From a virus: a stretch of DNA of 36,198 bases. This document shows, piece after piece, positions 1-29,919 of this stretch. Numbering within the stretch: the stretch's first letter is position 1; each line of letters starts with the position of its first letter. A program made the position numbers and the translations under genes. The notes beneath the pieces are model-generated. The model was given only the letters and a program-made list of their open reading frames with translations. It had not been told where the DNA came from and ran no database searches. The stretch lies in the IMG/VR virus record IMGVR_UViG_3300025141_000331, positions 1 to 36,198 of that record; one strand, 5' to 3'.

Positions 1-888
1 CTCGAATCCACAGGTAAGTCCTTTTTAGCTGCTCAAGTAGCAGCAAGTGCTCAAAAAATGGGTATTGATGTAGTATACTTTGATAGTGAATCCGCTATTG
101 ACCCAACCTTTCTTGAAAAGGCAGGATGCGATATCGAAACCTTGTTGTATGTGCAGGCCAATAGTGTTGAGTTTGTTCTAGAGACAATAGAGGATCTGCT
201 GGAGAATAATGAGAACAGAATGTTGTTCATTTGGGACAGTCTCGCGCTAACACCATCTCTTACCGATCAGGAGGGTGATTTCAACCCTCTATCATCCATG
301 GCAGTTAAGCCCAGAATCCTCTCTAAGGGCATGGCCAAGCTTGTCCAGCCCATTGCTAATGCCCAGGCTACGCTGCTGGTGCTAAACCAGCTTAAAACGA
401 ATATTACGAGCAATATAGCCGAAGCTATGACCACACCCTACTTCACCCCGGGCGGCAAAGCGATGCATTATGCATATAGCTTGAGAATTTGGCTGACTGG
501 CAGAAAGGCGAAGAACTCTTTTGTACAAGACGAGAGGGGATTTAGGATAGGCTCTGAAGTAAAGGCAAAGCTTGAGAAATCTCGTTTTGGTACGCAGGGC
601 CGGCAATGTACCTTTAAGATTCTTTGGGGAGATAAGGTCGGAGTTCAAGATGAGGAAAGTTGGCTTGAGGCGATTAAAGGCTCCGAGCACATAAGATCAG
701 GCGGAGCTTGGTACACCCTTGAGTATTCAGATGGCTCGACAGAAAAGTTCCAAGCTTCGAAGTGGGTCGAGAAACTTGAAGAAGAAAAGTTCAGAAACAG
801 AGTATTAGAACTCATGGATGAGGAAGTAATTCTAAAATTCCACGAGAAAACTGGAAATGCTGCTGATTTCTACGAGATAGAAGAATAA
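1..888 (+). CDS. RecA/UvsX-family recombinase, 5' end outside window
   Basis: Strand-exchange ATPase expected to coat single-stranded DNA for recombination-dependent replication and repair. The reading frame is open from base 1, so the start lies off the left edge; 295 residues are visible. Visible codons 2-7 read ESTGKS, the Walker A loop of RecA-type proteins. A hydrophobic strand ending LFIWDS (visible residues about 76-81) fits Walker B, and VLNQLKTNI (about 127-135) sits where RecA has its NQ(I/L)R segment before loop L2. The C-terminal third is charged and helical, as in phage UvsX-like proteins. The downstream exonuclease and helicase support a replication role. Whether it is nearer UvsX or cellular RecA cannot be settled without the missing N-terminus. 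Confidence 0.88.
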   Translation, partial: LESTGKSFLAAQVAASAQKMGIDVVYFDSESAIDPTFLEKAGCDIETLLYVQANSVEFVLETIEDLLENNENRMLFIWDSLALTPSLTDQEGDFNPLSSMAVKPRILSKGMAKLVQPIANAQATLLVLNQLKTNITSNIAEAMTTPYFTPGGKAMHYAYSLRIWLTGRKAKNSFVQDERGFRIGSEVKAKLEKSRFGTQGRQCTFKILWGDKVGVQDEESWLEAIKGSEHIRSGGAWYTLEYSDGSTEKFQASKWVEKLEEEKFRNRVLELMDEEVILKFHEKTGNAADFYEIEE

Positions 889-1268: not shown

Positions 1269-2234
1269 ATGTCTTCTAAAAGACTTTTGATTATAGACAT
1301 GTTAAACATGTTCTATAGAGCATATATTGTAGACCCCTCCCTATCAACCAACGGCGCTCCTATCGGAGGCCTGAAAGGCACAATCAAGATACTACAGAAA
1401 CTTATACGTGAATCAAATCCGGATAAGGTAGTGGTGTGCTGGGACGGAGCAGGAGGGTCTCGTAAGAGAAGATCTCTGAAGAAGGACTACAAGGCTGGCC
1501 GCAAGCCAATCCGACTTAATAGATCTGTACGTACATTATCAGAGAACGAAGAGATGGAGAATAAGTTCTGGCAACAAGGCAGGTTGATAGAATACATCAA
1601 CAGTATGCCGATCGCTCAATTAATGTACGAGGATATTGAGGCAGATGATCTTATTGCCTTTATTAAAGCAATGCCACAATACAAAGATTGGCAGAAAGTA
1701 ATCATCTCCAGTGATAAAGACTTCTTTCAGCTTTTAGATGAGAACACTATTTTACACCGGCCTGTACAAAAGGAGTTTTTAAATAAATTAGCAGTTTTAG
1801 AGAAGTTCGAAATACATCCTAATAACTTCGCTGTCGCAAGAGCCATCGCCGGCGACAAGAGCGATAACCTTCCTGGTATTCCAGGCGCTGGCCTGAAAAC
1901 GGTTAAAAATAGATTTCCCTTCTTAAAGGAGGAGAAGCACTATACCTTAAAGGATATTGTGGACCATTGTAAGAAAAATCTGGACTCCAAGGCGAAAATC
2001 TATGAAAAGATCCTTGAGAATGAAGATGTCTTAATCTTAAACTACAAGATGATGCAGTTGTATACGCCCTCTCTCAGCGCGAATACGAAAAAGAGCATCA
2101 AGAATGTTGTTTTGGAAGCAGATAACTCGTTTAACAAAACAGAGATATTAAAGCTCATGATTCAAGACGGATTCGGAGAATTCAATTGGAGTGAGTTGTC
2201 ACAAAAATTAAACAAAATATCTATTGACAATTGA
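1269..2234 (+). CDS. 5'-3' exonuclease / flap endonuclease (FEN family)
   Basis: A structure-specific nuclease that would remove RNA primers and 5' flaps, like T4 RNase H or the Pol I N-terminal domain. The expected acidic metal ligands are all visible: D10 (LLIIDMLN), D59 (VVCWDG), E124/D126/D127 (EADD), D149/D151 (SSDKDFFQL) and D196/D199 (GDKSDN). The helix-3-turn-helix LPGIPGAGLKT at 201-211 binds the duplex. Length 321 matches stand-alone phage FENs. AAGGA precedes the ATG. The last bases overlap the -35 box of the helicase promoter. Confidence 0.9.
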   Translation: MSSKRLLIIDMLNMFYRAYIVDPSLSTNGAPIGGLKGTIKILQKLIRESNPDKVVVCWDGAGGSRKRRSLKKDYKAGRKPIRLNRSVRTLSENEEMENKFWQQGRLIEYINSMPIAQLMYEDIEADDLIAFIKAMPQYKDWQKVIISSDKDFFQLLDENTILHRPVQKEFLNKLAVLEKFEIHPNNFAVARAIAGDKSDNLPGIPGAGLKTVKNRFPFLKEEKHYTLKDIVDHCKKNLDSKAKIYEKILENEDVLILNYKMMQLYTPSLSANTKKSIKNVVLEADNSFNKTEILKLMIQDGFGEFNWSELSQKLNKISIDN

Positions 2235-2279: not shown

Positions 2280-3629
2280 ATGCAAGAGTCTGATTTTTCA
2301 AAATATGGAAAATCCTTTCAAGAATCTTTAGCATACTTATTTTTAGAAGATCGGCCCTTTTCCGATCAACTAGAAGAGGTGCTTGATGTTGAATTTTTTG
2401 AGTTGAAGTACTTAAGAGTATTCACCTCCCTTGTAATGGACTATAAGACAAGATATAATACTCAACCGTCTAGAGATATAATGTCATCTCTTCTCAAGTC
2501 TAGTTTAGACGACGAGAACGAAGCAATACAGAAGCAAATTAGAGACTTCTTTGTTAGATACTCCTCTAAAGATATCGAGGGTATTCAATACGTCAAAGAT
2601 ACATCTCTAGATTTCTGCAAAAAGCAGAAACTAAAAGAAGCTATATTAAAGTCTGTCAACCTTTTGCAGAATTCATCGTATGACGAAATTAAGAATCTAA
2701 TAGACGACGCTTTAAAATTAGGCGTCGACGCTGATCACGGACATGACTACAAAAAAGATTTTGAGTCTAGATATGAAATTACAGCAAGAAATCCAGTCGC
2801 GACGGATTGGAAACACATTGACAAAATTTGTAAAAATGGCCTAGGCATAGGAGAGTTGGGAGTTTGTATCGCCGCGACGGGTTCGGGCAAGAGTATGGCC
2901 CTGGTCCATCTAGGCGCCGCCGCCCTGCGCGCGGGCAAGAATGTAGTTCACTATACTTTAGAACTTTCAGAGAAGGTTATTGGTTTGAGGTACGATAGCT
3001 GCCTGAGCAGTGTACCCCTCAATGATCTCCACGATATGAAAGACATGGTTGAGGAATCTTGTTTGGACGTGCCAGGCGAACTTTTTATTAAGGAGTATCC
3101 GACTAAGACTGCAAGTCCAAAAAATATTGCTAAGTCTTTAGAAAAATTAAACAAACTGGATCATAAGGTCGATTTAATAATAGTTGACTATGCAGATCTA
3201 TTACGACCATCCTCTGCTTTTAAAGAAAAAAGAAATGAATTAGAGTCTATTTATGAAGAGCTAAGAGCCTTGGCTCAACAGCACAATTGCCCTATTTGGA
3301 CAGCTTCCCAAACGAATAGAAGTGGATTAAACGCAGAGGTTATCACCATGGAATCTATATCAGAAGCTTTCAATAAATGTTTCGTAGCAGATTTTATTTT
3401 TTCTATATCTAGAACAATTGAAGACAAGAACACAAATACAGGAAGAATGTTTATTGCAAAAAACAGGAACGGTCCGGATGGAATGGTATTCCCCATTTTT
3501 ATGGATACTTCAAATGTTACTATTAAGGTGCTTGAACAGTCAACTGAGTCTCCAAGAGAAATAGAGGAAAACGCCGCCAAAAGACAGCACACAACTTTGA
3601 AAGAAAAATATAAGAAATTTAGGACTTAA
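2280..3629 (+). CDS. replicative DNA helicase, DnaB/gp41-like (RecA fold)
   Basis: Hexameric helicase expected to unwind the fork and travel with the polymerase. After an N-terminal helical domain (about 1-150) the RecA-fold motor shows Walker A AATGSGKS (198-205), the DnaB H1a signature TLELS (226-230) with the catalytic Glu, and Walker B LIIVDYADLL (299-308). ASQTNRSG near 342-349 is the DnaB sensor-type motif. Length 449 is typical. No primase (TOPRIM) domain is fused and none appears in the window, so the primase lies elsewhere or is the host's. GGAG sits upstream of the ATG and a good promoter lies just before it. Confidence 0.9.
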   Translation: MQESDFSKYGKSFQESLAYLFLEDRPFSDQLEEVLDVEFFELKYLRVFTSLVMDYKTRYNTQPSRDIMSSLLKSSLDDENEAIQKQIRDFFVRYSSKDIEGIQYVKDTSLDFCKKQKLKEAILKSVNLLQNSSYDEIKNLIDDALKLGVDADHGHDYKKDFESRYEITARNPVATDWKHIDKICKNGLGIGELGVCIAATGSGKSMALVHLGAAALRAGKNVVHYTLELSEKVIGLRYDSCLSSVPLNDLHDMKDMVEESCLDVPGELFIKEYPTKTASPKNIAKSLEKLNKLDHKVDLIIVDYADLLRPSSAFKEKRNELESIYEELRALAQQHNCPIWTASQTNRSGLNAEVITMESISEAFNKCFVADFIFSISRTIEDKNTNTGRMFIAKNRNGPDGMVFPIFMDTSNVTIKVLEQSTESPREIEENAAKRQHTTLKEKYKKFRT

Positions 3630-8983: not shown

Positions 8984-11900
8984 ATGACAGAGCGAGTTAA
9001 AAGTAAAATACCTTTCGTGGGACTGCACGCACACAGCGTTGCCGGTTCCCCTTTCGACGGATTTGGATATCCGCAAGAACACATGGACTTCGCATATGAA
9101 AATGGATGCGATGCGCTCGCTTTGACAGACCATGGCAACATGAATGGATTCTCTTACCAGCTACTTCATTTGAAGAAGATGAAAGAAGAAGGTAAGAAAT
9201 TTAAAGCTATCTTCGGCATTGAGGCATATTTCACGACTTCCGTAAAGGATTGGAAGGAGGCATATGAAAAGGCCAAGGCAGATAAAAAAGCAGCCAAAAG
9301 CTTGGAGAAGGACGACGGCAAGATGTCCGTTGAAAATGAAGGTGCCTCTAAGACAGCAGATACCGGCATCCTTAAACGCCGGCGACATCTTGTATTGCTC
9401 GCTCAAAACCAGACAGGACTCAATAACATTTTCAAGATGGTTTCAGAGTCATACCAGGGTGACAACTATTACAGGTACCCACGAGTCGACTATGATCTGC
9501 TGGAGAAGTATAGCGAGGGCGTTATTGCTAGCTCCGCTTGTCTTGGCGGTGTATACGCCGGTAACTATTGGGAGAATCGCGAACAAGGCGAAGAGGCTGT
9601 TCTCGATGCTATGCGGGAGACTACCAGAAGAATGATTTCTATCTTCGGAGAGAGATGGTTCGGAGAGCTACAATGGAATAACGTACCGGAGCAGCACACA
9701 CTAAACAAGTACATTGTACAGATGAAAGAAGAGTTTGGTATCAAGCTAATCTCTACGGCAGACAGCCACTATCCGAGCGCAGACGCGTGGAAGTATAGAG
9801 AACTATACAAGAGGCTTGGATGGATTGGCAGGTCCTCTTCTCGGCCTGATTATATGACAGACGAGCTACCAATCTCCGTTGACGAGATCGGTTATGAACT
9901 GTACCCTAAGAACGGCGACCAGATGTGGGAGAGTTACGAGAAGTATTCTGAAGAAGTTGGCGTAGAGTATGACAAAACCTTAGTCATGGACTCCATTACA
10001 AACACTCATTGGATCGCCCATGAGCTTATAGATGACTTCATACCTGATACTACGGTACGACTTCCCGAGTTTGTTGTACCGCCAGATTCGACTGCAGACG
10101 AAGCATTGCGCAAGTTTTCTTTTGAAGGCATGAAGAACTTAGGCTTAGTTCACAGGAAAGATTACATTGCAAGATTAGAGACTGAGCTAGATGTCATTGC
10201 AGACAGAGGCTTCAGCAAGTACTTCTTGACAATGAAAGCGGTGGCAGACAAATCCAATGAAGTGATGCTCACAGGCCCGGGCCGCGGCTCTGCAGCTGGC
10301 TCCCTTGTGGCTTACGTACTCAAGATTACGCAGGTAGACCCAATTAAGCACGGACTACTATTCGAGAGATTCTTGCGTAAGGACGCCACAGATTATCCAG
10401 ATATTGATTTTGATGTCGCAGAGCCGATGGAGATTAAAGAGTATCTCATGGACGAGTGGGGAGAAACCACTGTTGTACCGATCTCTAACTTCAACACTTT
10501 GCAGTTGCGTTCTTTGATCAAGGATATCTCTAAGTTTTATGAGGTACCTTTTCCTGAAGTAAACTCCGTAACATCGAGGATGATCCACGAGGCTACTCCC
10601 GAAGCAAAGAAGAAACACGGCATCAAGAGCGGTGTATATATCCCGACCTTCGAAGAGGTGATAGAATACTCTGTAAGCCTGCGAGGGTTCTTTGTTAAGT
10701 ACCCAGATATCAAGACGCACGTTGAAGCCCTCTACGGCCAGGTACGAGCAGTTAGCCGGCATGCCGGAGGTGTAGTGATTGGTGAAGACCTAGATCGCCA
10801 CATGCCTCTCATCCAAAGCGGAGGCGTACTGCAGACGCCATGGTCTGAGGGCCAAAACGTTCGCCATCTTGAGCCGCTAGGCTTCATCAAGTTTGATGTT
10901 CTCGGTCTCTCTACACTTCGCATGATCGAGAGTGCCGTAGGTCATATTCTCAAGAGACATTACAATGTCGAAGAGCCTACTTACGAGCAGATTAGAAAGT
11001 TCTATGATAAGAAGCTTCACCCTGAAGTTTTAGATCTGGACGACAAAGAGGTATACAAGAATATCTTTCAAGCAGGAAAGTTTGCAGGCATATTCCAGTT
11101 TACTCAGAAAGGAGCGCAGAACTTCTGCAGACGCGCGCAGCCAGATAATATCATCGACCTGTCCGCTATCACTAGTATTTATCGCCCAGGCCCGTTGGGT
11201 GCTAAAGTGGATAAATCTTATGTTAAAGCTAAGAGTAACCCAGAAGATATACATTACTTGCACCCCATTGTGGAGTCGGTGACAAGGGAGACATACGGAT
11301 TCTTGATCTTCCAGGAGCAGATCGCATTGCTAGCCCACAAGCTAGGTAAAGGCATCTCACTGGACGAGGCGAATCTGCTCCGCAAGCTGCTTACAAAGAA
11401 GGGCACTGGGAAGGGCGCGCGAGATAAGAAGAAGATTGAAACTAAGTTTATTCAAGGCTGCAAGGAGAAAGGAATTGATGAAACGTCGGCAAGACAACTA
11501 TGGCAAAACTTCGAATATTTCTCTGGCTATGGTTTTAATAAGTCTCACGCTGTTTCTTATAGCATACTCAGCTTTCAGTGCGCATGGCTGCTTAACTATT
11601 ATCCCGCAGAGTGGATGGCAGCTTTTCTAGACAAAGAACCAGAGGGAAGGAAAGAGGAGGCCATTAGTATTGCCAAACAAGCAGGCTTCGATATCAGAGC
11701 GCTAGACATTAATACTTCCGGCGTTCAGTGGGAGATCAGCGAGGATGGCACCACACTCATTCAGCCCCTTACATCAATTAAGGGATTGGGCGAGGCTGCT
11801 ACTGCTCAGATTTTATCAAACCGTCCGTTTGAAGATGCAGAAAGCTTTCTCTTTAGCGAAGAGATTGTGTACTCGAAGCTGAACAAGAAGGCACTTGATG

Positions 11901-12421
11901 TTCTGTGCCGCTCTGGCGCAATGGATTGCTTAATAGATAGTAGATTCACAGGCGGTAAGCACTTCTGGTCTGCCATGGCAATCGACAGGCCAAAGAACCT
12001 TAAGAAGTTCCACGAGAACATAGAGATGTATGCTCCAGAGGGTGACTTCACCGATGAGGAGAAGATTGAATACTTTTCTTCACTAACGGGCATCTTTCCT
12101 ATTGACATGGTGGTAGATAAAGAGGTACAATCTAAGTTAAATGATTATTGTGTCCCGCCCATTGGAGAATGGGACAATGATTTGGGAGTAGCATGGTTTA
12201 TTCCGAGAGAAGTAATCAAGAAGAAAACAAAGAATGGAAAGTCATATTGGATTGTAAGAGTGATTGACACAACGTCAGCGATAACAAGCATCAAATGTTG
12301 GGGTGTTAAAGAGAAAGATACCATTCACTTGAATCGTCCGTACATGGGCAAGCTTGACTATAACGATCAGTGGGGCTTTTCAACCAGATCAATGTATTAC
12401 AACTTTAGATTATTAGGATAA
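8984..12421 (+). CDS. dnaE: DNA polymerase III alpha subunit (family C), with PHP domain
   Basis: Replicative polymerase of bacterial type, 1145 residues, close to full DnaE length. The N-terminal PHP domain keeps a full-looking metal set: H15, H17, D25, D49/H50 (TDHGNM), E80, H135, C186 (SSACLGG), D260 and H262 (ADSHY). In DnaE proteins that retain these residues PHP can have 3'-5' exonuclease activity. The palm shows GPGRGSAAGS (431-440) and the catalytic Asps D473/D475 in PDIDFD, with the third, D638, in KFDVLGL. GYGFNKSHAVSY is the conserved finger motif. A C-terminal OB-fold lies at about 1055-1140. No separate epsilon exonuclease or clamp gene is seen in the window, and I could not pick out a clamp-binding motif. 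Confidence 0.95.
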   Translation: MTERVKSKIPFVGLHAHSVAGSPFDGFGYPQEHMDFAYENGCDALALTDHGNMNGFSYQLLHLKKMKEEGKKFKAIFGIEAYFTTSVKDWKEAYEKAKADKKAAKSLEKDDGKMSVENEGASKTADTGILKRRRHLVLLAQNQTGLNNIFKMVSESYQGDNYYRYPRVDYDLLEKYSEGVIASSACLGGVYAGNYWENREQGEEAVLDAMRETTRRMISIFGERWFGELQWNNVPEQHTLNKYIVQMKEEFGIKLISTADSHYPSADAWKYRELYKRLGWIGRSSSRPDYMTDELPISVDEIGYELYPKNGDQMWESYEKYSEEVGVEYDKTLVMDSITNTHWIAHELIDDFIPDTTVRLPEFVVPPDSTADEALRKFSFEGMKNLGLVHRKDYIARLETELDVIADRGFSKYFLTMKAVADKSNEVMLTGPGRGSAAGSLVAYVLKITQVDPIKHGLLFERFLRKDATDYPDIDFDVAEPMEIKEYLMDEWGETTVVPISNFNTLQLRSLIKDISKFYEVPFPEVNSVTSRMIHEATPEAKKKHGIKSGVYIPTFEEVIEYSVSLRGFFVKYPDIKTHVEALYGQVRAVSRHAGGVVIGEDLDRHMPLIQSGGVLQTPWSEGQNVRHLEPLGFIKFDVLGLSTLRMIESAVGHILKRHYNVEEPTYEQIRKFYDKKLHPEVLDLDDKEVYKNIFQAGKFAGIFQFTQKGAQNFCRRAQPDNIIDLSAITSIYRPGPLGAKVDKSYVKAKSNPEDIHYLHPIVESVTRETYGFLIFQEQIALLAHKLGKGISLDEANLLRKLLTKKGTGKGARDKKKIETKFIQGCKEKGIDETSARQLWQNFEYFSGYGFNKSHAVSYSILSFQCAWLLNYYPAEWMAAFLDKEPEGRKEEAISIAKQAGFDIRALDINTSGVQWEISEDGTTLIQPLTSIKGLGEAATAQILSNRPFEDAESFLFSEEIVYSKLNKKALDVLCRSGAMDCLIDSRFTGGKHFWSAMAIDRPKNLKKFHENIEMYAPEGDFTDEEKIEYFSSLTGIFPIDMVVDKEVQSKLNDYCVPPIGEWDNDLGVAWFIPREVIKKKTKNGKSYWIVRVIDTTSAITSIKCWGVKEKDTIHLNRPYMGKLDYNDQWGFSTRSMYYNFRLLG

Positions 12422-12425: not shown

Positions 12426-13013
12426 ATGACAAAAGAATTTATAATTGAAAGCAAAAAATATGGCAACCACACGGTTCTAGTCGATGAAGAAGACTGGGAT
12501 AAGATCAAGAATCATACTTGGAGACTGCATTATGATACGACCAGGGATCGCTTAAGCTCAGTCCGGACAAATGTTATTCGAGAGCCAAGAGAACGACGCA
12601 CGCCTCAAACGAAAGACAGCCCCCGCGGCCGCGCGGGCACCTTGCGTGGATTTAAAGAAATAGAGGTGAGACTTCATAATCTTATCTTAGATCACGTCAC
12701 GCGTGAAAGTAAACTAGTCGTAGATCATATCAACGGTAATGTTTTAGACAACAGGAAATGCAATTTACGAGTTTGTACCCACGCCGAGAATATCAGAAAC
12801 GTTGAAAAGAAAAGAAAGAACAACACATCAGGATATATCGGCGTTTCCAAAAGTGGAAATAGATGGTGCGCAAAGATCGCCATGGCCGGCAAGCAGATTC
12901 ACGTCGGCTCATTTGGATCTAAAGAAGAAGCGGCCCGAGCACGAGATTTGAAAGCTATCGAGCTTCACGGAGAGTTTGCCAGCCTTAACTTCCCAAGAGA
13001 AGAATACAAATAA
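12426..13013 (+). CDS. freestanding HNH homing endonuclease with AP2 DNA-binding domain
   Basis: A selfish DNA endonuclease. HNH core: the first His pair region RLHNLILDH (82-90), then VVDHINGNVLDNR (98-110) with the HN residues, and NLRVCTHAENIRN. The C-terminal AP2 domain (about 135-190) has SGYIGVSKSGNRWCAKI and GSFGSKEEAARARD. Length 195 is standard for phage HNH-AP2 proteins. It starts four bases after the polymerase stop, a typical landing site next to a conserved replication gene. Its stop overlaps the next start by one base. It is not inserted inside another gene here, so no intron is implied. Confidence 0.9.
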   Translation: MTKEFIIESKKYGNHTVLVDEEDWDKIKNHTWRLHYDTTRDRLSSVRTNVIREPRERRTPQTKDSPRGRAGTLRGFKEIEVRLHNLILDHVTRESKLVVDHINGNVLDNRKCNLRVCTHAENIRNVEKKRKNNTSGYIGVSKSGNRWCAKIAMAGKQIHVGSFGSKEEAARARDLKAIELHGEFASLNFPREEYK

Positions 13014-13816: not shown

Positions 13817-14143
13817 ATGGCAAAAGTATTCTTTCCTTTATGCAAGAGGCACCTGAAGGAATACGGAACCGTTCGTGACTCTAGATCCTATAATAAGGTA
13901 GCTATTGAAACTTGTGAGGAATGTGTGAAAGAACAAAAAGAATTGGTTGATCATCCCGATCATTATAACAAGGGTATTGAAGTGATAGATTTTATAGAAT
14001 CTTGGGAAATGGACTTCAATACAGGTAATGCGATTAAGTATCTTTCCAGGCACAAGTATAAGGACAACCCACTTGAGGACCTAAACAAAGCTAAGTGGTA
14101 TATAGAGAGATTGATTCAAAAATTACAGGAGAATCATAAATGA
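13817..14143 (+). CDS. DUF3310-family protein
   Basis: A 108-residue protein. The second half carries the DUF3310 (SaV-like) signature: DHPDHYNKGIEVIDFIES, then GNAIKYLSRHKYKDNP and EDLNKAKWYIERLI. An N-terminal part with two Cys pairs (C9 with His12, and C33/C36) is extra and may bind a metal. DUF3310 proteins are common in phages beside nucleotide-metabolism genes and have been annotated as nucleotide kinases, but their activity is not established. It overlaps the next gene by four bases (ATGA). Confidence 0.85.
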   Translation: MAKVFFPLCKRHLKEYGTVRDSRSYNKVAIETCEECVKEQKELVDHPDHYNKGIEVIDFIESWEMDFNTGNAIKYLSRHKYKDNPLEDLNKAKWYIERLIQKLQENHK

Positions 14144-15186
14144 TAAAATCTTTAGATAACGATTATTCAAAACCAAAAAAGACACTCTCTTTCGACGACG
14201 TATTGTTAGTGCCGAGGTACAGCGATATAAAAAGTAGAAAAGAAGTGGATACTTCTAATTCTCTAGACGACAAAAGAAGTTTCAACTTGCCTATTATATC
14301 CAGCCCCATGGACACAATAACCGAAGCTAACATGGCCACCGCGATGCATCAAGCTGGAGGTTTTGGAATTGTACATAGGTATAATTCGATAGAAGAACAA
14401 GCTATTGTCTTGTCAGAGATCGCGGGCACCCGCGCCGCGGCTATTGGAATGACTGGGGACTATATTGAGCGAGCGCTCTATTTATATAACACATGCAACG
14501 TTGACATATTATGCATAGACGTTGCCCATGGTCACCATATCATGATGGAAAGGTGTATTAAATCATTGAAGGATAGATTATCAAATGACGTACATATTAT
14601 GGCTGGCAACGTAGCTACCCTAGAGGCATTCGACGATCTGGCCCTCTGGGGAGCGGACAGTATTAGAGTTGGTATCGGTGGTGGAAGCATATGCTCAACT
14701 AGGCTAGTGTCTGGCCATGGCGTGCCAACTTTACAAAGCATATTAGACTGTACCAAGACGAGCCATGGCGCAAAGATTATAGCTGACGGAGGGATCAAGA
14801 CATCCGGAGATATAGTCAAAGCCTATGCAGCCGGCGCCGATTTTGTGATGGTTGGTTCTCTGCTTTCCGGAACGAAAGAAACTCCCGGAGAGGTATTTAG
14901 CAACGCAGATGGAAAGAAGTATAAAGTCTATCGAGGCATGGCTTCGTCTGCAGCACAAAATGATTGGAGAGCTAAGTCGTCTACTCCGGAGGGAGTGTCT
15001 ACAACCGTCCCTTACAAGGGGAAGGTCCAAAATATATTAGACGACCTCCGCGGCGGCATAAAAAGTGGATTTTCATATTCCGGCGCAAGAAATATTGTAG
15101 AGTTTCAGAATAAATGTGAATTCGCACAGCAAACAAATGCTGGACAAATAGAAAGTTCCACCCACATTATGAGGAGAAGAAAATGA
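14140..15186 (+). CDS. IMP dehydrogenase / GMP reductase family enzyme (no CBS domains)
   Basis: A (beta/alpha)8 purine enzyme, 348 residues. The core begins LSFDDVLLVP (16-25), and the catalytic Cys loop is GGGSICSTRLVSGHGVP (180-196, C185). KIIADGGIKTSGD and ADFVMVGSLLSG bind the nucleotide. The C-terminal NAGQIESSTH resembles the K+-site AG..ES..H of IMPDH. The CBS pair of cellular GuaB is missing. The flap after YRGMASSA is short and reads NDWRAKSSTPEG, lacking the Arg-Tyr dyad of IMPDH and closer to GMP reductase. So it could make XMP from IMP or IMP from GMP. A PurA-like enzyme is at 24863. Confidence 0.88.
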   Translation: MIKSLDNDYSKPKKTLSFDDVLLVPRYSDIKSRKEVDTSNSLDDKRSFNLPIISSPMDTITEANMATAMHQAGGFGIVHRYNSIEEQAIVLSEIAGTRAAAIGMTGDYIERALYLYNTCNVDILCIDVAHGHHIMMERCIKSLKDRLSNDVHIMAGNVATLEAFDDLALWGADSIRVGIGGGSICSTRLVSGHGVPTLQSILDCTKTSHGAKIIADGGIKTSGDIVKAYAAGADFVMVGSLLSGTKETPGEVFSNADGKKYKVYRGMASSAAQNDWRAKSSTPEGVSTTVPYKGKVQNILDDLRGGIKSGFSYSGARNIVEFQNKCEFAQQTNAGQIESSTHIMRRRK

Positions 15187-17013: not shown

Positions 17014-17062
17014 TTAGAGAAAACATTTTGAAAATCTAATTATATTGTTGGAGTTTTACTAT

Positions 17063-17716
17063 ATGAAATTATCAAAAGAAAAAACAGATCCAGAAGAGCC
17101 AGCGGAAATAGAAGCAACTGAAGAAAATGAAATAGAAGCTTCAATGCCGCTGATGATCAATTTCCCTAGCTTGGGAAATGAGACCTTACCCGGCCAAGAA
17201 GAGTCTAGCTTAATTCTGTATGGAGATATAGATGAAGAAAACTCTGCAGATGTTATCACTTCTCTATTAAAGAGTAAGATCAGCGAACCAGTAGAAGATT
17301 GCAAGCCTGTTAACTTCTATTTATCCAGTTGGGGCGGGTCCGCTGCAGATATGTTTGGCATTTATGATACTATGAGACTGGTAAGGGCAGACAGAGAGAT
17401 ACATACCCATGGCCTAGGGAAAGTAATGTCCGCCGGCGTTATACTCTTGGCAGCAGGAACAAAGGGTAAAAGAAAAGTTGGCAAGAACTGCCGCGTAATG
17501 ATCCATGGAGTAATTGCAGGCCATCATGGCAATCTTCATAGCTTAGTCAACGAGATTGAAGAAGCCAAATGGACACAGGATAGATATATCGACGCTCTAG
17601 TAGAGGAGACCGATATGTCTAAAAGATATATTAAGAAGCTTATTGATAGGAAAATGAATGTATACCTTGACGCTAAAGAAGTTGTTGAGTTGGGCATTGC
17701 AGATGAAATTATATAA
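17063..17716 (+). CDS. ClpP-family serine protease (S14-like), Asp of triad replaced
   Basis: A 217-residue protein, start ATG 17063 behind GGAG (an upstream TTG at 17045 is less likely). An acidic 45-residue leader precedes a ClpP core: YGDID (53-57), FYLSSWGGS (85-93, substrate strand), nucleophile S123 in GKVMSAGVILLAAGTKGKR, and H148 in MIHGV. Where ClpP has the triad Asp (RDxFLSA) this protein reads MNVYLDA with N199. It could process capsid proteins as ClpP-like prohead proteases do, or act with a host Clp ATPase. The neighbours (acidic protein, amidase) do not decide between them. Confidence 0.85.
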   Translation: MKLSKEKTDPEEPAEIEATEENEIEASMPLMINFPSLGNETLPGQEESSLILYGDIDEENSADVITSLLKSKISEPVEDCKPVNFYLSSWGGSAADMFGIYDTMRLVRADREIHTHGLGKVMSAGVILLAAGTKGKRKVGKNCRVMIHGVIAGHHGNLHSLVNEIEEAKWTQDRYIDALVEETDMSKRYIKKLIDRKMNVYLDAKEVVELGIADEII

Positions 17717-20372: not shown

Positions 20373-21956
20373 ATGTCTAAACACTATGCATCCAACCAAG
20401 CTTTAAATGAAAGGCTTCTGAAGGGTGTTAATACCCTAGCAGATAACGTGGGCTCCACTCTTGGACCGAGAGGCAGGAACGTTATCTTACACCAGAAGGA
20501 TAAGAATCCTATAGTAACTAAAGATGGTGTAACTGTAGCGTCTTTCATTGACTTGGAAGATCCCGTGGAGAATGTTGGAGTGCAGATTGTTAAGCAGGCA
20601 GCGTTTCAGACTAATGCGAAAGCAGGCGACGGCACGACTACGGCCACAATCTTGTCTAGAGCAATCCTCGTAAACTCCCAGAAGTACTTAGCGGCTGGCG
20701 CTGTCCCTATTGATTTAAAGAGGGGCATCGACAAGGCAACCGAGGCGATGGTCACAGAACTTAAGAGCCTCTCGCAGCCTGTCTCCAGCCAGGAAGACAT
20801 TAAGCATATCGCAACCATCTCTGCCAACAATGACAAGGCTATCGGAGAGTTGATATCTATGGCAGCAGACCAAGCTGGCAAGGATGGGGCGATCACAGTA
20901 GAGGAAGCAAAGTCTCTCGACACGAGTCTGGATGTTATCGAAGGCTTCAGGTTTGACTCTGGATACTTTGCCAACGCGTTTATCAATGACGAGCGCAAGG
21001 GTGCTGTTAAATATGATAATTGTTTCCTGATGATTACCGATCATAAGCTCAGTACAGTAGAGGAGATCATGCCAACTCTAGAAATTATCTCAAGAGACGG
21101 CAGACCTTTAGTTATTATAGCAGAGCAAGTAGACGGCCAGGCACTAGCATCCTTAATTATGAATCAGACCAGAGGTACGCTTAGGGTTGCAGCAGTAAAG
21201 GCCCCAAGGTATGGAGAAGAGCGTAGAAATATCCTCAAGGACCTTTGCGTGTCAACAGGAGCAACGTTTATATCCCGAGAAGCAGGAGTCAGACTAGATC
21301 AGGTCGAGCTTAAGCACCTCGGCACATGCAGGAACATAGAGGTGGTAAAGAACTTTACAACGATCGTAGGCGGCGAAGCTGACTTAGAAGATATCGAAAA
21401 GACAATCGATAATCTAAAGACAGAACTTTCTCAGACTAGCGATATGAAACAGTGCGAAAGGATCCAAGAGAGAATAACTAGGTTGGCTAGCGGTATCGCA
21501 ATTATTAAAGTTGGCGCCGCTACAGAAATTGAGATGATCGAGAAGAAACATCGCATCGAGGACGCGCTAGAGGCTGTTAAGTCAGCCCAGGAAGAAGGCA
21601 TGGTACCCGGAGGAGGCACGGCCCTGCTAAGAGTATCGAAGACAGTTAGAGAAGATATCAGAAGGCTAGAGCTTGATAACCACGACCAAGAACTGGGCGC
21701 AAGAATTGTGCTCGATGCTGCTAGTGAACCAGTAAAGCAGATGTCCTTAAATGCTTCAGAATCTCCGGATATTATAATCTCCATGATTGAGTCGGCGGAT
21801 AATAATCAGGGATATAACTTTGTTAGTCGCGAGATTGTAGACATGATGTCTGCGGGTGTAATAGATCCTGTTAAGGTTACAAGGACAGCGCTGCAAAACG
21901 CGACTTCTGTAGCTACTTCACTAATTACATCAGGACATGCAGTAGTGGAATTATAG
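20373..21956 (+). CDS. groEL: chaperonin GroEL
   Basis: A 60-kDa chaperonin, 527 residues, near full length. STLGPRGRNV (28-37) and KDGVTVA (50-56) form the nucleotide pocket, AGDGTTT (84-90) holds the catalytic Asp equivalent to E. coli D87, and VPGGGTALLRV is the conserved equatorial motif. The usual GGM-rich C-terminal tail is missing; the chain ends TSGHAVVEL. It has its own promoter with a palindromic operator candidate, unlike cellular groESL operons, and no groES directly upstream; a GroES-like gene is at 6324. It probably folds phage structural or replication proteins. Confidence 0.95.
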   Translation: MSKHYASNQALNERLLKGVNTLADNVGSTLGPRGRNVILHQKDKNPIVTKDGVTVASFIDLEDPVENVGVQIVKQAAFQTNAKAGDGTTTATILSRAILVNSQKYLAAGAVPIDLKRGIDKATEAMVTELKSLSQPVSSQEDIKHIATISANNDKAIGELISMAADQAGKDGAITVEEAKSLDTSLDVIEGFRFDSGYFANAFINDERKGAVKYDNCFLMITDHKLSTVEEIMPTLEIISRDGRPLVIIAEQVDGQALASLIMNQTRGTLRVAAVKAPRYGEERRNILKDLCVSTGATFISREAGVRLDQVELKHLGTCRNIEVVKNFTTIVGGEADLEDIEKTIDNLKTELSQTSDMKQCERIQERITRLASGIAIIKVGAATEIEMIEKKHRIEDALEAVKSAQEEGMVPGGGTALLRVSKTVREDIRRLELDNHDQELGARIVLDAASEPVKQMSLNASESPDIIISMIESADNNQGYNFVSREIVDMMSAGVIDPVKVTRTALQNATSVATSLITSGHAVVEL

Positions 21957-24625: not shown

Positions 24626-24869
24626 AGAGAATCGCTTAATACTAATGTTACTTATGGTTCTTTTGGTTCAGAGCTTGTTTTTGGCCCTCGCACTTTTGGT
24701 CGCGACCGAGGAGCCGCGGCCCCCCGAGGTGAATTGGATAAGGGCGAGCAGCGATCGCGCGAAATTTGTCCGAAAAAATTTTCCTCTTTCGTCAGATACT
24801 CTTGACAAATTAGATAAACTAAAGTATACTAGTTGTATAGTTTTTAGCTTAAGGAGCAGTAAATGTTAG
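24603..24869 (+). CDS. small membrane-anchored protein overlapping its neighbours
   Basis: An 88-residue frame starting ATG 24603 (or 24609), overlapping the phosphatase end by 23 bases. A basic N-terminus (MKKRHREN) precedes a strong span (LILMLLMVLLVQSLFLALAL), then a polar tail. The topology would fit a small inner-membrane or spanin-like protein. The last 70 bases also contain the purA promoter and the frame overlaps the purA start by seven bases, so the C-terminus may be poorly constrained. Moderate confidence that it is expressed. Confidence 0.45.
   Translation: MRMKKRHRENRLILMLLMVLLVQSLFLALALLVATEEPRPPEVNWIRASSDRAKFVRKNFPLSSDTLDKLDKLKYTSCIVFSLRSSKC
24802..24830 (+). promoter_or_regulatory. 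sigma70-type promoter for purA-like gene
   Basis: TTGACA (24802-24807), 17 bp, TATACT (24825-24830), followed by AAGGAG and the ATG at 24863. Short inverted arms AACTA (24817-24821) and TAGTT (24830-24834) flank the -10 region. Confidence 0.75.
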
Positions 24870-25852
24870 CTGATATAATTGTCGACCTGCAATATGGTGA
24901 CTGCGGTAAGGGAAAGGTTACACATTACCTTTGTAAATACAAAGAATACACGCACGTACTGAGATACAACGGAGGCTGCAACGCAGGCCATACGATTTAT
25001 CACGAAGGTAAAAAGTTCGTTACCCATCACATACCTAGTGGAGTATTCCACGGTGTCAAGTCGATAATAGGTTCAGGCTGCGTAGTCAACCCCGCCCAAT
25101 TCTTCAAGGAGATTGGAGAGTTAGAGGCAGGCGGTATTAATACACAAGGCTTGATATACATAGCTGACAACGCGCACGTAATCACTACAAAGCACCTTGA
25201 AGAGGACGGTAAGGATAGCAAGCTAGGTACAACTAAGCAAGGTAACGGGCCCGCGTACAGAGACAAGTACGCGCGCGTGGGAGTGCGTGCAAAGGATGTT
25301 CCCGAACTTGAGCCATATTTGATTAACTTATACGAAGAGTTCCATGAGTCTGGAGAGACCGTAAGGATACTGTGTGAGGGCGCACAAGGCTTTGGACTGG
25401 ACATAGACCATGGCGACTACCCATACGTGACGTCTAGCCATTGTACGAGCGCAGGAGCGTTGCTCAACGCTATCCCACCATCTTGGATCAGAGACGTATG
25501 GGGCGTGGCCAAGCTATATGAAACCTACTCTGGATACAAAGACTTCGAGCCAAAGGAAAAAATATTTCAAAAAATTCGGGACGCTGGCGAAGAGTACGGA
25601 GCAACAACCGGTCGCGCGCGCCAATGTAACTGGATGGACTTCAATTTACTAGAGCGCGCCGCAAAGATTAACGGCGTTAACAAGCTTGTATTCAATAAGG
25701 TTGATATTCTAGAAGAAGTAAAAGTTTGGAAACTAATTAATAATAGTGAAACGGTAGATTTTTCTTCCGGAACAGATATGGAAAAGTGGCTACAAGATAA
25801 GTTAGGAAATAATTTAGAAGTTCATTTTTCTGGGAACCCGCATACATTATGA
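24863..25852 (+). CDS. purA: adenylosuccinate synthetase, short form
   Basis: Joins IMP and aspartate using GTP, the first committed step to AMP. The P-loop reads LQYGDCGKGK (9-18) with catalytic D13 kept; cellular PurA has QWGDEGKGK. Other kept elements: NAGHT with H43, GTTKQGNGPAYRDK (122-135), EGAQGFGLDIDHG, the aspartate loop GATTGRAR (246-253, Arg251/253) and guanine-specifying NKVD (278-281). At 329 residues it lacks about 100 residues of bacterial PurA, matching archaeal-length and phage forms. Keeping D13 argues against the diaminopurine enzyme PurZ. It has its own strong promoter. Confidence 0.9.
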   Translation: MLADIIVDLQYGDCGKGKVTHYLCKYKEYTHVLRYNGGCNAGHTIYHEGKKFVTHHIPSGVFHGVKSIIGSGCVVNPAQFFKEIGELEAGGINTQGLIYIADNAHVITTKHLEEDGKDSKLGTTKQGNGPAYRDKYARVGVRAKDVPELEPYLINLYEEFHESGETVRILCEGAQGFGLDIDHGDYPYVTSSHCTSAGALLNAIPPSWIRDVWGVAKLYETYSGYKDFEPKEKIFQKIRDAGEEYGATTGRARQCNWMDFNLLERAAKINGVNKLVFNKVDILEEVKVWKLINNSETVDFSSGTDMEKWLQDKLGNNLEVHFSGNPHTL

Positions 25853-26740: not shown

Positions 26741-26944
26741 ATGTCAACTGTTAACATTTCCGAGGACGTGCTTACTGTCTTATTAGAGGCAGCAGAGGCG
26801 TCCTTACCTGATAAGAAAGAGGAGCTTAGGAAGCTTCGAGGCAAGGAAGAGGCGTTTGTACTCCGACTAGTAGAGAATAATGTATCTAGATGCGAGCGCG
26901 CTATATTTGACGCGAAAGAGGCGCTCTTTAGATCTCTAAAGTGA
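26741..26944 (+). CDS. 67-residue helical protein
   Basis: An acidic and basic helical protein (ISEDVLTVLLEAAEASLPDK, then KEEAFVLRLVENNV). It begins one base after the previous stop and ends overlapping the next GTG by four bases, so translation is coupled. Not recognised. Confidence 0.6.
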   Translation: MSTVNISEDVLTVLLEAAEASLPDKKEELRKLRGKEEAFVLRLVENNVSRCERAIFDAKEALFRSLK

Positions 26945-27258
26945 TAGGCACCCTGCTTCATTATAATAGTGCCGGTTCAAAAGCTATGGGGATAGTTGTA
27001 GATTATTTCAGGTATGAACGGAAGGATTCGAAGAGTAGAGTAATGCAGCACGGTGATGTTATTATAGCGCTGGAGTGGGTCAAGAAAGATGACAAGATGC
27101 CGTCTCAAGTTTGGCCTGCAAGATCTTGGGGTACCGCTGGAGATGATCACCTAAGCTCTTCTGACCTAAGATACTGGCCACTGGATTATGAAAAAAAGTC
27201 TTGGTATAATCTAAAACACTTTAAGGTTATTTCCGCTGGTCCAAAGAAAACTACTTAA
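26941..27258 (+). CDS. divergent SH3-like array relative
   Basis: A 105-residue beta-rich protein from GTG 26941. The layout mirrors the mini-protein array: an N-terminal strand IGTLLHY, AMGIVVDYF (the G-I-V strand), VIIALEWV (the V-x-W strand) and a closing FKVISAG. It lacks the GDLV tetrapeptide and is longer. It stands just before the first CTTAAT promoter and is the first family relative met from the left. Confidence 0.55.
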   Translation: MIGTLLHYNSAGSKAMGIVVDYFRYERKDSKSRVMQHGDVIIALEWVKKDDKMPSQVWPARSWGTAGDDHLSSSDLRYWPLDYEKKSWYNLKHFKVISAGPKKTT

Positions 27259-27282
27259 ATAATTTTGTTCCGTGCTTATAGT
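27254..27282 (+). promoter_or_regulatory. CTTAAT-class promoter 1
   Basis: CTTAAA (27254-27259), 17 bp, TATAGT (27277-27282), with CGTGCT before the -10. AAGGAGGT follows within about 10 bases, giving a very short leader before ATG 27302. The -35 includes the preceding stop codon. Confidence 0.7.
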
Positions 27283-27301
27283 TATTATATAAGGAGGTCC
27301 T

Positions 27302-27538
27302 ATGGAAATGGCACCACCCTCACATGAAATAAAACCAGAGATCTTCAAGAATATCTTTCTTGAAGATTGGATCAAATTACAGCGTGAGGCAGAAGAAGTC
27401 TATGAAGAGGCTCTTCTCTTAAAGAAGGAGGGCAAATACGCACAGTATACACAATTGATGCGCAAATATGATATATATATTGCTAGCGCAGATACAATGT
27501 TAGATATTGCTGCAAAATTTCCCATAGCGGAGGCATGA
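27302..27538 (+). CDS. hypothetical helical protein
   Basis: A 78-residue acidic helical protein (EDWIKLQREAEEVYEEALLL). AAGGAGGT gives a near-ideal ribosome site; ATG 27308 is an alternative start. Its stop overlaps the next ATG by four bases. First gene behind promoter 1. Confidence 0.65.
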   Translation: MEMAPPSHEIKPEIFKNIFLEDWIKLQREAEEVYEEALLLKKEGKYAQYTQLMRKYDIYIASADTMLDIAAKFPIAEA

Positions 27539-27891
27539 TGAGATACTCAGAAGAAGAAATAGATCTAGCGTTTCACTATTTTGTTAAAGAAGCGCAAAAA
27601 ATAGTGTCAGAATATATGGACACGCACTTTCCAACATTGCCAAAAGAGCATATTGAAGTGAATGATAACGGGCATGTATACTGGAAACTATCCAGAGTCA
27701 GTGATTCGGACCGCCATGGCGCTACTTCAAGAACTGTATACGCTTTTGTCAGAAAGAGAGACGGCGCGATTTTCAAACCAGCATCTTGGAAGGCGCCTTA
27801 TACTAAGGGCAAAAGCGCAGTGAGAGGCTATGTAACCGACGAGTGGGCCTCTAGCGTACTCACACCCCATGGGGTAATATATGCGAGGTGA
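27535..27891 (+). CDS. conserved phage hypothetical (KPASWKAP motif)
   Basis: A 118-residue protein. The C-terminal half, YAFVRKRDGAIFKPASWKAP then KGKSAVRGYVTDEW, matches a recurring small phage family in which a KPASWKAPAK-type motif follows a strand reporting on a residue-modified basic patch. The family's function is unknown; the basic motif suggests nucleic-acid contact. Start at ATG 27535 or 27538. Its last four bases are the start of the first strict array member. Confidence 0.65.
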   Translation: MMRYSEEEIDLAFHYFVKEAQKIVSEYMDTHFPTLPKEHIEVNDNGHVYWKLSRVSDSDRHGATSRTVYAFVRKRDGAIFKPASWKAPYTKGKSAVRGYVTDEWASSVLTPHGVIYAR

Positions 27892-28088
27892 AGGTAGGCT
27901 CCCTGGTTTCGTACATAGGCCCATGGGTGCCTGGGATATTCCCAGATGACGCCACCAGAGAACCGGCTTACGGAATAATAATAGAAATGGGCGAACATTT
28001 CCAGGGTACAAACATTTGTGTACACTGGATGGAATCAGAAGAATCCTTCTGGCATGACGAGACAGACTTAAGGATATTGAGTGAATAG
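27888..28088 (+). CDS. GDLV-family mini-protein (MKVGSLV)
   Basis: A 66-residue array member, GTG start overlapping the previous gene by four bases. MKVGSLVSYIG, then YGIIIEMGEHF, ICVHWME and a closing LRILSE. Its end overlaps the next start by eight bases. Confidence 0.7.
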   Translation: MKVGSLVSYIGPWVPGIFPDDATREPAYGIIIEMGEHFQGTNICVHWMESEESFWHDETDLRILSE

Positions 28089-28332
28089 AAGAAACCCGCC
28101 GAAGGCAGGTGACACGGTGATATGGAAAGATGGCTCAGTCGGCATATTGGTCGAGCGCTTTGATTTGTATGCCAAAGGCAATATTGCCAGCAGAAATTAC
28201 ACACCCTGTTGGTGCTGGAGGATCGAATTTCCGCAATCACCACCTTACGACTACAATATTCAGTACGGCGAGAGCGAAATTAATCTGATTAATAGGAATA
28301 AGGTAAAAAAGATTATACCATGCCCAGGTTAA
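28081..28332 (+). CDS. GDLV-family mini-protein with N-terminal extension
   Basis: An 83-residue member, GTG 28081. The extension MNRRNPP precedes KAGDTVIWKDGSVGILVERF; the W-strand reads CWCWRIEF and the last strand KVKKIIP. It is longer than most members because of an insert around SPPYDYN. Its stop codon forms part of promoter 2. Confidence 0.65.
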   Translation: MNRRNPPKAGDTVIWKDGSVGILVERFDLYAKGNIASRNYTPCWCWRIEFPQSPPYDYNIQYGESEINLINRNKVKKIIPCPG

Positions 28333-28356
28333 TTTTAGGATCTGCGTGCTTATAAT
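28328..28356 (+). promoter_or_regulatory. CTTAAT-class promoter 2
   Basis: GTTAAT (28328-28333), 17 bp, TATAAT (28351-28356) preceded by GCGTGCT. TAGGAGGT follows, so the leader is about 15 bases before ATG 28378. Confidence 0.7.
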
Positions 28357-28377
28357 ATACTTACTAGGAGGTGCCCA

Positions 28378-28530
28378 ATGAAGATTGGCGACTATGTTGT
28401 CTGTGAAGGCAAAGAAGGCAAGATCATACGATTTCAGCCCAAGACAAGAGATCTAATTGTAAAGGATGGCAATGGAGAAATCCATACTTTCTCTCAATTT
28501 ACGACGGAGTTAAAAAATGCGCGCCGGTGA
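28378..28530 (+). CDS. GDLV-family mini-protein, shortest form (MKIGDYV)
   Basis: A 50-residue member behind TAGGAGGT. MKIGDYVVCEGKEGKIIRF followed by LIVKDGNGE; it lacks the W of the third strand. The last 14 bases are shared with the next gene, giving a C-terminus NARR. Confidence 0.7.
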   Translation: MKIGDYVVCEGKEGKIIRFQPKTRDLIVKDGNGEIHTFSQFTTELKNARR

Positions 28531-28708
28531 TTTGGTTAAGCTCAAATCTAGTATCCGTCGGACCAACCATCATAGAGATATTTTAGGCTTGGTGATAGAA
28601 TATCTTGAACCGGAAGGATATCTGCACGCGTCTGCGCTTGTCAAGTGGCCCATGGGAGAAGAATTCGAGTGGCCACATACTTTGGAGGTTGTCAATGAAG
28701 CCAGGTGA
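28517..28708 (+). CDS. GDLV-family mini-protein (MRAGDLV)
   Basis: A 63-residue member. MRAGDLVKLKSS, LGLVIEYLEPEGYL, ALVKWPMGEEF, LEVVNEAR. The EPEGYL insert also occurs as PTEGYL in the member at 34807, suggesting these two are close copies. 14-base overlaps on both sides. Confidence 0.75.
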   Translation: MRAGDLVKLKSSIRRTNHHRDILGLVIEYLEPEGYLHASALVKWPMGEEFEWPHTLEVVNEAR

Positions 28709-28895
28709 TTTGGTAAATAATACTCATGCCCTTGATCGCAGTGGTTTAGGTCTTATAGTTGAAGTGCAGCATGACGCGACGAAGCGCACGCCAGGTTGTG
28801 ACTACAAAGTACAGTGGATCAATCCGCCGCCAGGGTGTCCTAAATATTCATGGAACAGTGCGGCATGGTTGGAGTTAGTGAATGAAGGCCGGTGA
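28695..28895 (+). CDS. GDLV-family mini-protein (MKPGDLV)
   Basis: A 66-residue member; the frame is open upstream, but ATG 28695 is chosen because it aligns with the family start and the 14-base junction. GLGLIVEVQHD, YKVQWINPPPG, LELVNEGR. Confidence 0.75.
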   Translation: MKPGDLVNNTHALDRSGLGLIVEVQHDATKRTPGCDYKVQWINPPPGCPKYSWNSAAWLELVNEGR

Positions 28896-29064
28896 TTTAG
28901 TAACTTTATCTGCCTATGGACAGAAACTAAAAATGTTTTCTAGACTTTATAATAAAGTCGGTCTAGTGGTGAAAGTTATGAACGATGGATCTTGTAATGT
29001 CCGCTGGCAGGGAGCGGAAGATCATTCGTATATGGAAAGAAAAGATATAAAAAGAGCTAAATAA
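28882..29064 (+). CDS. GDLV-family mini-protein (MKAGDLV)
   Basis: A 60-residue member. MKAGDLVTLSA, VGLVVKVMNDG, CNVRWQGAED, ending DIKRAK rather than LEVIS. It closes this sub-run; the end touches promoter 3. Confidence 0.75.
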   Translation: MKAGDLVTLSAYGQKLKMFSRLYNKVGLVVKVMNDGSCNVRWQGAEDHSYMERKDIKRAK

Positions 29065-29085
29065 GTACGATTCTGTGCTTATAAT
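29057..29085 (+). promoter_or_regulatory. CTTAAT-class promoter 3
   Basis: CTAAAT (29057-29062), 17 bp, TATAAT (29080-29085), preceded by TGTGCT. AGGAGTGG follows just before the deaminase gene. Confidence 0.65.
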
Positions 29086-29112
29086 AAAGAATAGGAGTGG
29101 ACATTATGTCCG

Positions 29113-29469
29113 GTGTATTACGAAGCTCGTGAGAGAGCATTGAAAAATGGTAGGGTCTACCATCTCGCTGCTATTTTGAAGCGAGGAAAGAAAGTCGTCA
29201 GAATAGGCGAGAACACATATAAGACTCACCCTAGATTCAAAAGAACATATCCAGATGGCACAACAGGCAGCCACATGCACGCAGAAATGAATGTGCTACG
29301 CTTTGCAAAGCCAGGAGATACCATAGAGGTTATTAGATTTCTAAAGACTGGCGGTAGAGCCATGGCAAAGCCTTGTCAGTATTGTATGAAGTACATACGA
29401 GAGGCTGGAATTAAAGAGATCAAGTATACTAATCTAGAAGGAGAGTGGGAGTGCATGAAAATAGTTTAA
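29113..29469 (+). CDS. cytidine/deoxycytidylate deaminase-like zinc protein
   Basis: A CDA-superfamily deaminase of about 118 residues: zinc ligand and catalytic H56-A-E58 in SHMHAEMNVLRFA, and P87-C-x-x-C91 in AKPCQYCMKYI. GRVYHLAAILKRG near the start is typical of the phage branch. The substrate is unknown (dCMP, cytidine or a nucleic acid). The start is odd: the well-placed ATG 29106 reads a different frame and stops after eight codons, while the deaminase frame begins at GTG 29113. Removing one G from the CCGG at 29110-29113 would join them. Either GTG is used or the 5' end carries a one-base indel. Confidence 0.8.
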   Translation: MYYEARERALKNGRVYHLAAILKRGKKVVRIGENTYKTHPRFKRTYPDGTTGSHMHAEMNVLRFAKPGDTIEVIRFLKTGGRAMAKPCQYCMKYIREAGIKEIKYTNLEGEWECMKIV

Positions 29470-29681
29470 AAGTAGGCGATCTGATTTCGTACTGTAACAT
29501 AGACCAGGAAATAGTTTATGGGCTGGTTGTAAAGCTCGTCGGCTGGAAAAAAGAAGCTCGGGGCGAAGCAGTATCAGTAGTGTGGATGGACGACGGCCTA
29601 CCAACATACGAAAATATAGACAGCATTCTCGGAGATTCACCAGATTATAATTACATGGGACTAATAAATGAAAGTCGGTGA
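29451..29681 (+). CDS. GDLV-family mini-protein with N-terminal extension (LKVGDLI)
   Basis: A 76-residue member from GTG 29451 (GTG 29445 also possible) behind AGGAGAG, overlapping the deaminase end by 19 bases. HENSLKVGDLISY, YGLVVKLVGWKK, VSVVWMDDG, then GLINESR. 14-base overlap with the next member. Confidence 0.7.
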   Translation: MHENSLKVGDLISYCNIDQEIVYGLVVKLVGWKKEARGEAVSVVWMDDGLPTYENIDSILGDSPDYNYMGLINESR

Positions 29682-29889: not shown

Positions 29890-29919
29890 ATTTAGTATGA
29901 TGGTGTTATAAATATTTTT

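Follow-up and report, generated by a model that had tools for sequence, protein, structure and literature searches.

How does a phage that encodes a family C DNA polymerase remove mispaired nucleotides from the strand that this enzyme extends? The question is raised by dnaE, which occupies 8984..12421 on the plus strand of the virus record IMGVR_UViG_3300025141_000331, a fragment of 36,198 bases that was analyzed over its whole length and is referred to here as the window. Judged from its sequence, the 1145-amino acid product is probably a phage replicative DNA polymerase that proofreads for itself through a zinc-binding PHP site. Four Pfam domains, each above its curated cut-off, follow one another in the PHP, palm, fingers, and HHH order of family C DnaE-type polymerases: PHP at residues 14–226 (E 9.5e-27), DNA_pol3_alpha (PF07733) at residues 375–641 (E 6.7e-52; 10106..10906, plus strand, as are all parts of dnaE given below), the finger domain at residues 666–829 (E 4.8e-36; 10979..11470), and the HHH_6 helix-hairpin-helix region at residues 901–987 (E 4.3e-12; 11684..11944). 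Together with a match of PHROG 405, "DNA polymerase," to residues 7–1062 (E 2.4e-228), these domains bear out the complete phage DnaE that a first-pass annotation had proposed. Among solved structures, those nearest by sequence are the DnaEs of Taq, Mycobacterium tuberculosis, and Escherichia coli.

The PHP domain, taken from the Pfam start to the last metal ligand, spans residues 14–262 (9023..9769), its final two ligands lying beyond the Pfam match and being placed by alignment. Aligned in the same way, the remaining ligands are H15, H17, and D25 (9026..9058), H50 in the motif TDHGN (9131..9133), E80 (9221..9223), H135 (9386..9388), and C186 (9539..9541), followed by D260 and H262 in ADSHY (9761..9769). 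The nine columns read HHDHEHCDH, which fits the active-site pattern HHDHEH[C/H]DH; the ligand pattern HHDHEHCDH is the one by which an excerpt of PMC12926913 calls a PHP site active, and a passage of PMC5636811 describes the bacterial nine-ligand PHP domain as a trinuclear zinc proofreader. A scan of viral contigs for this polymerase family returned 597 confirmed stretches, from which 80 loci were kept, and 79 of the 81 sequences, the window included, were long enough to align. Eight of the ligand columns are occupied identically in 79/79, and H15 in 78/79, the remaining row being a gap where the sequence starts after H15. Fifteen further family members, reached via another gene, keep 9/9 each. 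The retention of all nine ligands noted by the first-pass annotation thus holds for the window and across its family, and chance can be set aside as its cause. In an alignment of phage DnaEs with 19–34% identity to the first row, few columns are invariant, and the ligands belong to these; the palm aspartates D473 and D475 of the PDIDFD motif (10400–10408) are likewise invariant in all aligned family members (79 + 15). We suggest that the site would bind three zinc ions and excise mispaired 3' ends as M. tuberculosis DnaE1 does.

According to one proposal, bacteria originally proofread with PHP, and DnaQ later took over in some lineages. Across phage DnaEs, ligands were read in 18 annotated phage records and in 72 of 80 IMG/VR loci with frames >800 aa, the loci having been found with a PHP-degenerate query; the 8 loci whose frames do not exceed 800 aa, and rows whose frame lacked the PHP region, were left unclassed. 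A single actinophage protein query added 11 loci, giving 91, of which 40 on the longer contigs (at least 34 kb) were searched for PF00929 (RNase_T, the DnaQ fold family). This search covered whole records, 17 annotated and 40 from IMG/VR, and left out the 4.8 kb gut record MT838831 as well as L312, L313, L314, and L316; for 7 of the 16 complete-PHP IMG/VR records, the ligands were read at the tree-table stage. Ligand counts proved bimodal, being either 9/9 or at most 4/9, the latter called wrecked here. PF00929 was found in 1/11 annotated records with a complete PHP site vs 5/6 with a wrecked one, and in 4/16 vs 21/23 IMG/VR records; the one unclassed record, L301, had no match (0/1) and has an open frame without the PHP region, which places it in neither class. 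With the window family included, DnaQ accompanies 6/81 complete-PHP records but 26/29 wrecked-PHP records. The 29 wrecked-PHP records count Pseudomonas phage Y1 and L281, without which the figure is 25/27. Three of the 29 gave no DnaQ match; among them, L230 is a fragment of 46 kb, and its polymerase core is identical to the one in L291, a record that does have DnaQ. Within a 58-row tree set, from which L309, L310, L318, and L319 were omitted as near copies of included rows, DnaQ was present in 3/29 complete and 26/29 wrecked records (Fisher p 9e-10, a value that ignores relatedness); the tree, built without the PHP region, shows about 4 switches in PHP state and 8 in DnaQ. In Pbunavirus 109 and Wifcevirus ECO71P1, a DnaQ-like gene directly precedes the PHP-wrecked dnaE and ends on its first base, a one-base overlap. 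Most bacteria with DnaE1 only have PHP or DnaQ as their single candidate proofreader, according to an excerpt of PMC12926913; such an either-or in phages was not found stated in the literature searched, which comprised open-licence papers only. The pattern across phages favors intrinsic proofreading by PHP over a recruited epsilon, although the switches that are independent in evolution are few.

Within the window family itself, the profile evidence points the same way. The window (G000) gave no match to PF00929, in agreement with the first-pass annotation, which had seen no epsilon subunit there. PF00929 exceeded the cut-off in 1/54 family records (0/21 and 1/33) and in 0/11 family records of at least 136 kb. 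G011 showed a match below the cut-off (E 0.013), and PF16473, a related family of exonucleases, was found in 0/15 family records. The sole positive record, G081, encodes a DnaQ-like protein in a 300-aa frame near the contig end together with a DnaE whose PHP site is intact. Since a phage DnaQ was not found by PF00929 in 53/54 family records, a host DnaQ/epsilon might proofread in trans, the PHP site being retained for metal-dependent folding or as a docking surface for epsilon. We regard this as the main rival to intrinsic proofreading, yet an unlikely one. No aligned member that includes this region has lost any of the nine ligands, whereas phage DnaEs accompanied by DnaQ mostly have wrecked ligands, which also implies that docking alone does not require them. 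Furthermore, the DnaE1s of alpha-, beta-, and gamma-proteobacteria have a conserved epsilon-binding patch and have lost the PHP ligands (PMC3919608). The combination of a phage DnaQ with an inactive PHP domain, which the first-pass annotation had named as fatal to its proposal, did not appear: none of the family members read had a damaged PHP site, and DnaQ occurred in 1/54. Of the two routes that it had left side by side, intrinsic proofreading and host epsilon, the comparison among phages favors the former and makes the latter the less probable.

The PHP site of this family is bordered by an unusual loop. Between E80 and H135, the alignment places 54 residues in the window protein (9224..9385); the loop measures 50–55 residues in 79/79 family members and 48–55 in the 15 others, compared with 10–33 residues in the other DnaEs measured (25 from phage records and 19 bacterial). 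Residues W90, E117, E119, S122, and K123 are invariant in 79/79 family members, and Y94 is present in 78/79. A passage of PMC5636811 describes the equivalent 29-residue loop of M. tuberculosis DnaE1 as lining a groove that leads into the exonuclease site, and mentions that the DnaQ-like domain of PolC is inserted at the equivalent loop. The long loop may handle the primer end, shaping the path of the primer strand beside the PHP site. Its length and its own invariant residues would also suit a PHP site turned to pyrophosphate hydrolysis or to clearing 3' ends that are blocked or ribonucleotides, in which case replication would either have low fidelity or depend on an unrecognized nuclease for proofreading, and an excerpt of PMC4822814 reports pyrophosphatase activity coupled to the PHP domain of E. 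coli DnaE. Nevertheless, the nine-ligand pattern is that of characterized PHP exonucleases, and the reciprocity with DnaQ is what proofreading predicts, making such a change of function improbable.

A second polymerase is encoded by relatives of the window. On contig G021, the window's closest relative (89% DNA identity), the gene for a family A DNA polymerase of 394 aa, with the polymerase domain only, lies at L149 10001-11182 and ends, by alignment, about 2.0 kb to the left of window position 1. Family A matches occurred in 8/10 and 11/16 family records, the latter mostly short, and 15/23 contigs carrying the family A gene also have DnaE, including all five that exceed 130 kb. An alignment query recovered 80 family A loci, and a single-sequence query 2. 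Residues D219, R256, K260, F264, Y268, H347, and D348 are invariant in 47 sequences; among them we take D219 to be the motif A Asp, D348 the motif C Asp, and the R/K/F/Y set motif B. The Glu expected after the motif C Asp is Ser in 17/17 family A sequences and in at least 90% of the 47. AlphaFold models the protein well (pLDDT 93.8, pTM 0.91), and Foldseek retrieved the large fragments of Taq and Bacillus Pol I (best E 1.5e-13, Taq large fragment). This likeness to the Pol I large fragment in fold and invariant motif residues is set against clear differences: about 394 aa, neither a 3'-5' nor a 5'-3' nuclease domain, and the exchange of Glu for Ser. Among the matches listed, annotated-phage proteins are distant, at 22–27% identity. 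The enzyme and the stand-alone flap nuclease encoded in the window might jointly do the work of Pol I, split between two genes, by filling and trimming gaps. Because the gene accompanies the family and keeps its catalytic residues, one may ask whether it is the main replicase, with DnaE as an accessory. However, the family A enzyme is small, lacks a 3'-5' exonuclease domain, and carries Ser for Glu in most sequences, and DnaE is the more conserved protein, at 69–70% identity between the window and relatives G004 and G008 against 43–59% between family A proteins and the G021 copy. An accessory role for DnaE therefore seems very improbable. Directly after the family A gene, at L130 11185-12027, a 281-aa protein without a Pfam match is encoded, which is 46% identical in G008.

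The means by which the polymerase stays on its template were also looked at. Beyond the HHH region, the window protein continues for 158 residues (11945..12418, from length comparison with solved DnaE chains), as against 263–271 in the E. coli, Taq, and M. tuberculosis chains. The full-length bacterial DnaE1 terminus, with its OB and tau-binding domains, thus exceeds this tail by about 105 residues, and the tau-binding domain may be missing here; the AlphaFold model has too little confidence in this part to add to the length comparison. A conserved clamp-type Q motif was not seen, the pattern matching at scattered positions in 10/79 sequences, although divergent motifs would escape it. The beta clamp PF02767 and the clamp loader PF13177 were each found in 0/10 family records; the former profile matches bacterial control genomes and the latter bacterial and also archaeal controls. 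The T4-type clamp C-domain PF09116 was likewise found in 0/10, a profile that had no proper positive control there; divergent versions of all three may escape. The question of clamp and loader dependence raised by the first-pass annotation is thus narrowed by three families searched for and not found in ten records, and processivity would come from a host clamp or from a clamp-independent mode.

Several points weigh against intrinsic proofreading and against the wider scheme around it. The support for such proofreading comes from sequence, and host epsilon could still bind DnaE. The AlphaFold model of DnaE is weak (mean pLDDT 68.8, pTM 0.53, N-terminal start <50); Foldseek with this low-confidence model ranks the M. 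tuberculosis, Taq, and E. coli DnaEs first, but the confidence is too low for the PHP metal site to be checked in three dimensions. The absence of DnaQ is read from two profiles only, PF00929 and PF16473, mostly in fragment records, and the role given to the family A enzyme from its domain content only. In the comparison across phages, the three independent pairs on supported branches are mostly opposite in state but too few to reach significance (sign test p 0.25–1). Six complete-PHP records, including G081, carry a DnaQ-like gene; a complete PHP site and DnaQ are therefore not mutually exclusive.

The origin of the polymerase was examined with 19 bacterial DnaEs from many phyla, sampled among those nearest to the window. 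Five rows of the window family form a branch of their own (support 100, length 1.3) outside a supported group that takes in every one of the 19 bacterial rows, so that the family does not take a position within the bacterial DnaEs of this tree, the second one built, from which DAC19 was excluded as a long branch. The phylogeny that the first-pass annotation had proposed against the host DnaE was thereby run against these sampled bacterial DnaEs. The nearest bacterial DnaEs share 28–33% identity and come from many phyla, which, together with the branching position, makes recent capture of dnaE from a host unlikely. Bacterial contamination was rejected because dnaE lies in a replication module that is largely collinear in two end-overlapping phage genomes of 186–191 kb, and because the protein branches outside the sampled bacterial DnaEs. 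The DnaEs of Pseudomonas phage Y1 (L136), L281, and MT838831 (L131) cluster with bacterial DnaEs, which may mean that bacterial DNA is present in these records or that the genes were captured recently.

The two genomes, G004 (185,927 bases) and G008 (190,629 bases), have overlapping ends (485 bases with mismatches; 98 bases exact) and are probably complete. G004 encodes a T4-type portal, terminase, major head protein, and prohead protease (PHROGs 213, 2, 138, and 207) as well as a gp32-like single-stranded DNA-binding protein, its virion genes lying outside the span covered by the window, and its 141–174 kb region is largely collinear with the window. On these grounds, the window is assigned by sequence to a T4-type phage lineage that is so far metagenome-only within the records searched, and DnaE would be the replicative polymerase of an uncultured T4-type tailed phage. 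The recombinase, helicase, and flap nuclease neighbors listed by the first-pass annotation are real. On the plus strand of the window, a UvsX/RecA-type recombinase lies at 58..888, truncated at the contig edge as the first gene of the fragment (the G004 copy has 374 aa); it is followed by a stand-alone FEN-type 5'-3' exonuclease at 1269..2234 and a DnaB-like replicative helicase at 2280..3629.

Compared with known systems, the window enzyme combines familiar parts in an unfamiliar way. Like M. tuberculosis DnaE1 (PDB 5lew and 7pu7; phmmer E 3.3e-91 and 4.8e-91), it has a family C core and a PHP site whose nine ligands are of identical types; it differs in its low identity, in a loop of 54 residues against the 29 that a passage of PMC5636811 gives for the mycobacterial enzyme, and in its shorter C-terminus. 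The DnaE-like Pol III alpha proteins of PHROG 405, from actinophages and others, are also phage-encoded, and many keep the nine ligands; nevertheless, identity is about 30% or less over most of the protein among the matches listed, the loop of the intact ones has 12–33 residues, and the window family stands apart from them on a long branch. Jumbo-phage subgroup 3.2 is defined, in an excerpt of PMC7824862, by a Pol III alpha with an N-terminal PHP domain, but the enzyme is seen there as close and host-derived, unlike the deep branch of the window family; this comparison is by description. UvsX, the DnaB-type helicase, and the virion and gp32-like proteins of G004 recall T4-type replication, from which the lineage differs in that its replicase would be DnaE (family B polymerase was not searched as a family) and in the lack of PF09116 and PF13177 in ten records. 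The first-pass annotation had set the presence of DnaE against the use of family A or B polymerases by most large phages. DnaE is present, but the implied rarity was too strong, as 1362/50,697 phage records match the window DnaE by tblastn, all at <60% identity and 596 of them over at least 80% of the query. Phage DnaEs, some with PHP, had been described earlier, as excerpts of PMC7824862 and PMC8008677 indicate; what makes this case interesting is the exchange between PHP and DnaQ, together with the long loop and a family A partner that is polymerase only.

Taken together, these features outline a replication fork that resembles neither the T4 fork nor the bacterial one, a picture that we put forward tentatively and as somewhat doubtful in its entirety. 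DnaE would work without a dedicated clamp, loader, or epsilon and would proofread for itself at a zinc PHP site whose shape is altered by the loop of about 50 residues that is specific to this lineage; lagging-strand gaps would pass to a Pol I in two pieces, one protein with the polymerase only and the other a flap nuclease, and PHP and DnaQ would interchange in phage DnaEs generally. Phages that bear DnaE with PHP or DnaQ in compact genomes are natural experiments on the replacement of a proofreader, and this lineage adds an enzyme with an intact PHP site, for which no phage clamp and hardly any epsilon were found and whose partner is a reduced Pol I. Such a small replisome, rebuildable in vitro, could show whether PHP alone suffices for faithful replication. 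If the interpretation is true, phages document a switch between two proofreading chemistries.

Other genes of the window and its relatives complete the picture. Directly after dnaE, at 12426-13013, an HNH endonuclease with no counterpart in G004 or G008 is encoded, probably a mobile endonuclease; in G004, tail-fiber-like genes occupy the position just after dnaE. The replication module also includes an enzyme of the IMP dehydrogenase/GMP reductase family (14140-15186), conserved in G004 and G008, as are the phage GroES (6324-6611) and GroEL (20373-21956), which lie about 14 kb apart. A ClpP-type serine protease at 17045-17716 is separate from the T4-type prohead protease of G004. At 24863-25852, an adenylosuccinate synthetase has a 2-amino-type synthetase as its best PHROG, yet its GDxGKGK motif keeps the Asp; the enzyme may be either PurA or PurZ. 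An N-terminal leader of the MKLLFENWRKY type, which may target proteins to the capsid, is found on unrelated proteins in 3/242 called open reading frames of G004 and 8/220 of G008 (L083-L102), and also on a Nudix-like protein and on the DnaQ-like protein in L400. Finally, the region 26900-36198 contains many small open reading frames of about 70–100 aa, frequently with a K-x-GDLV-like start, that are apparently paralogous.

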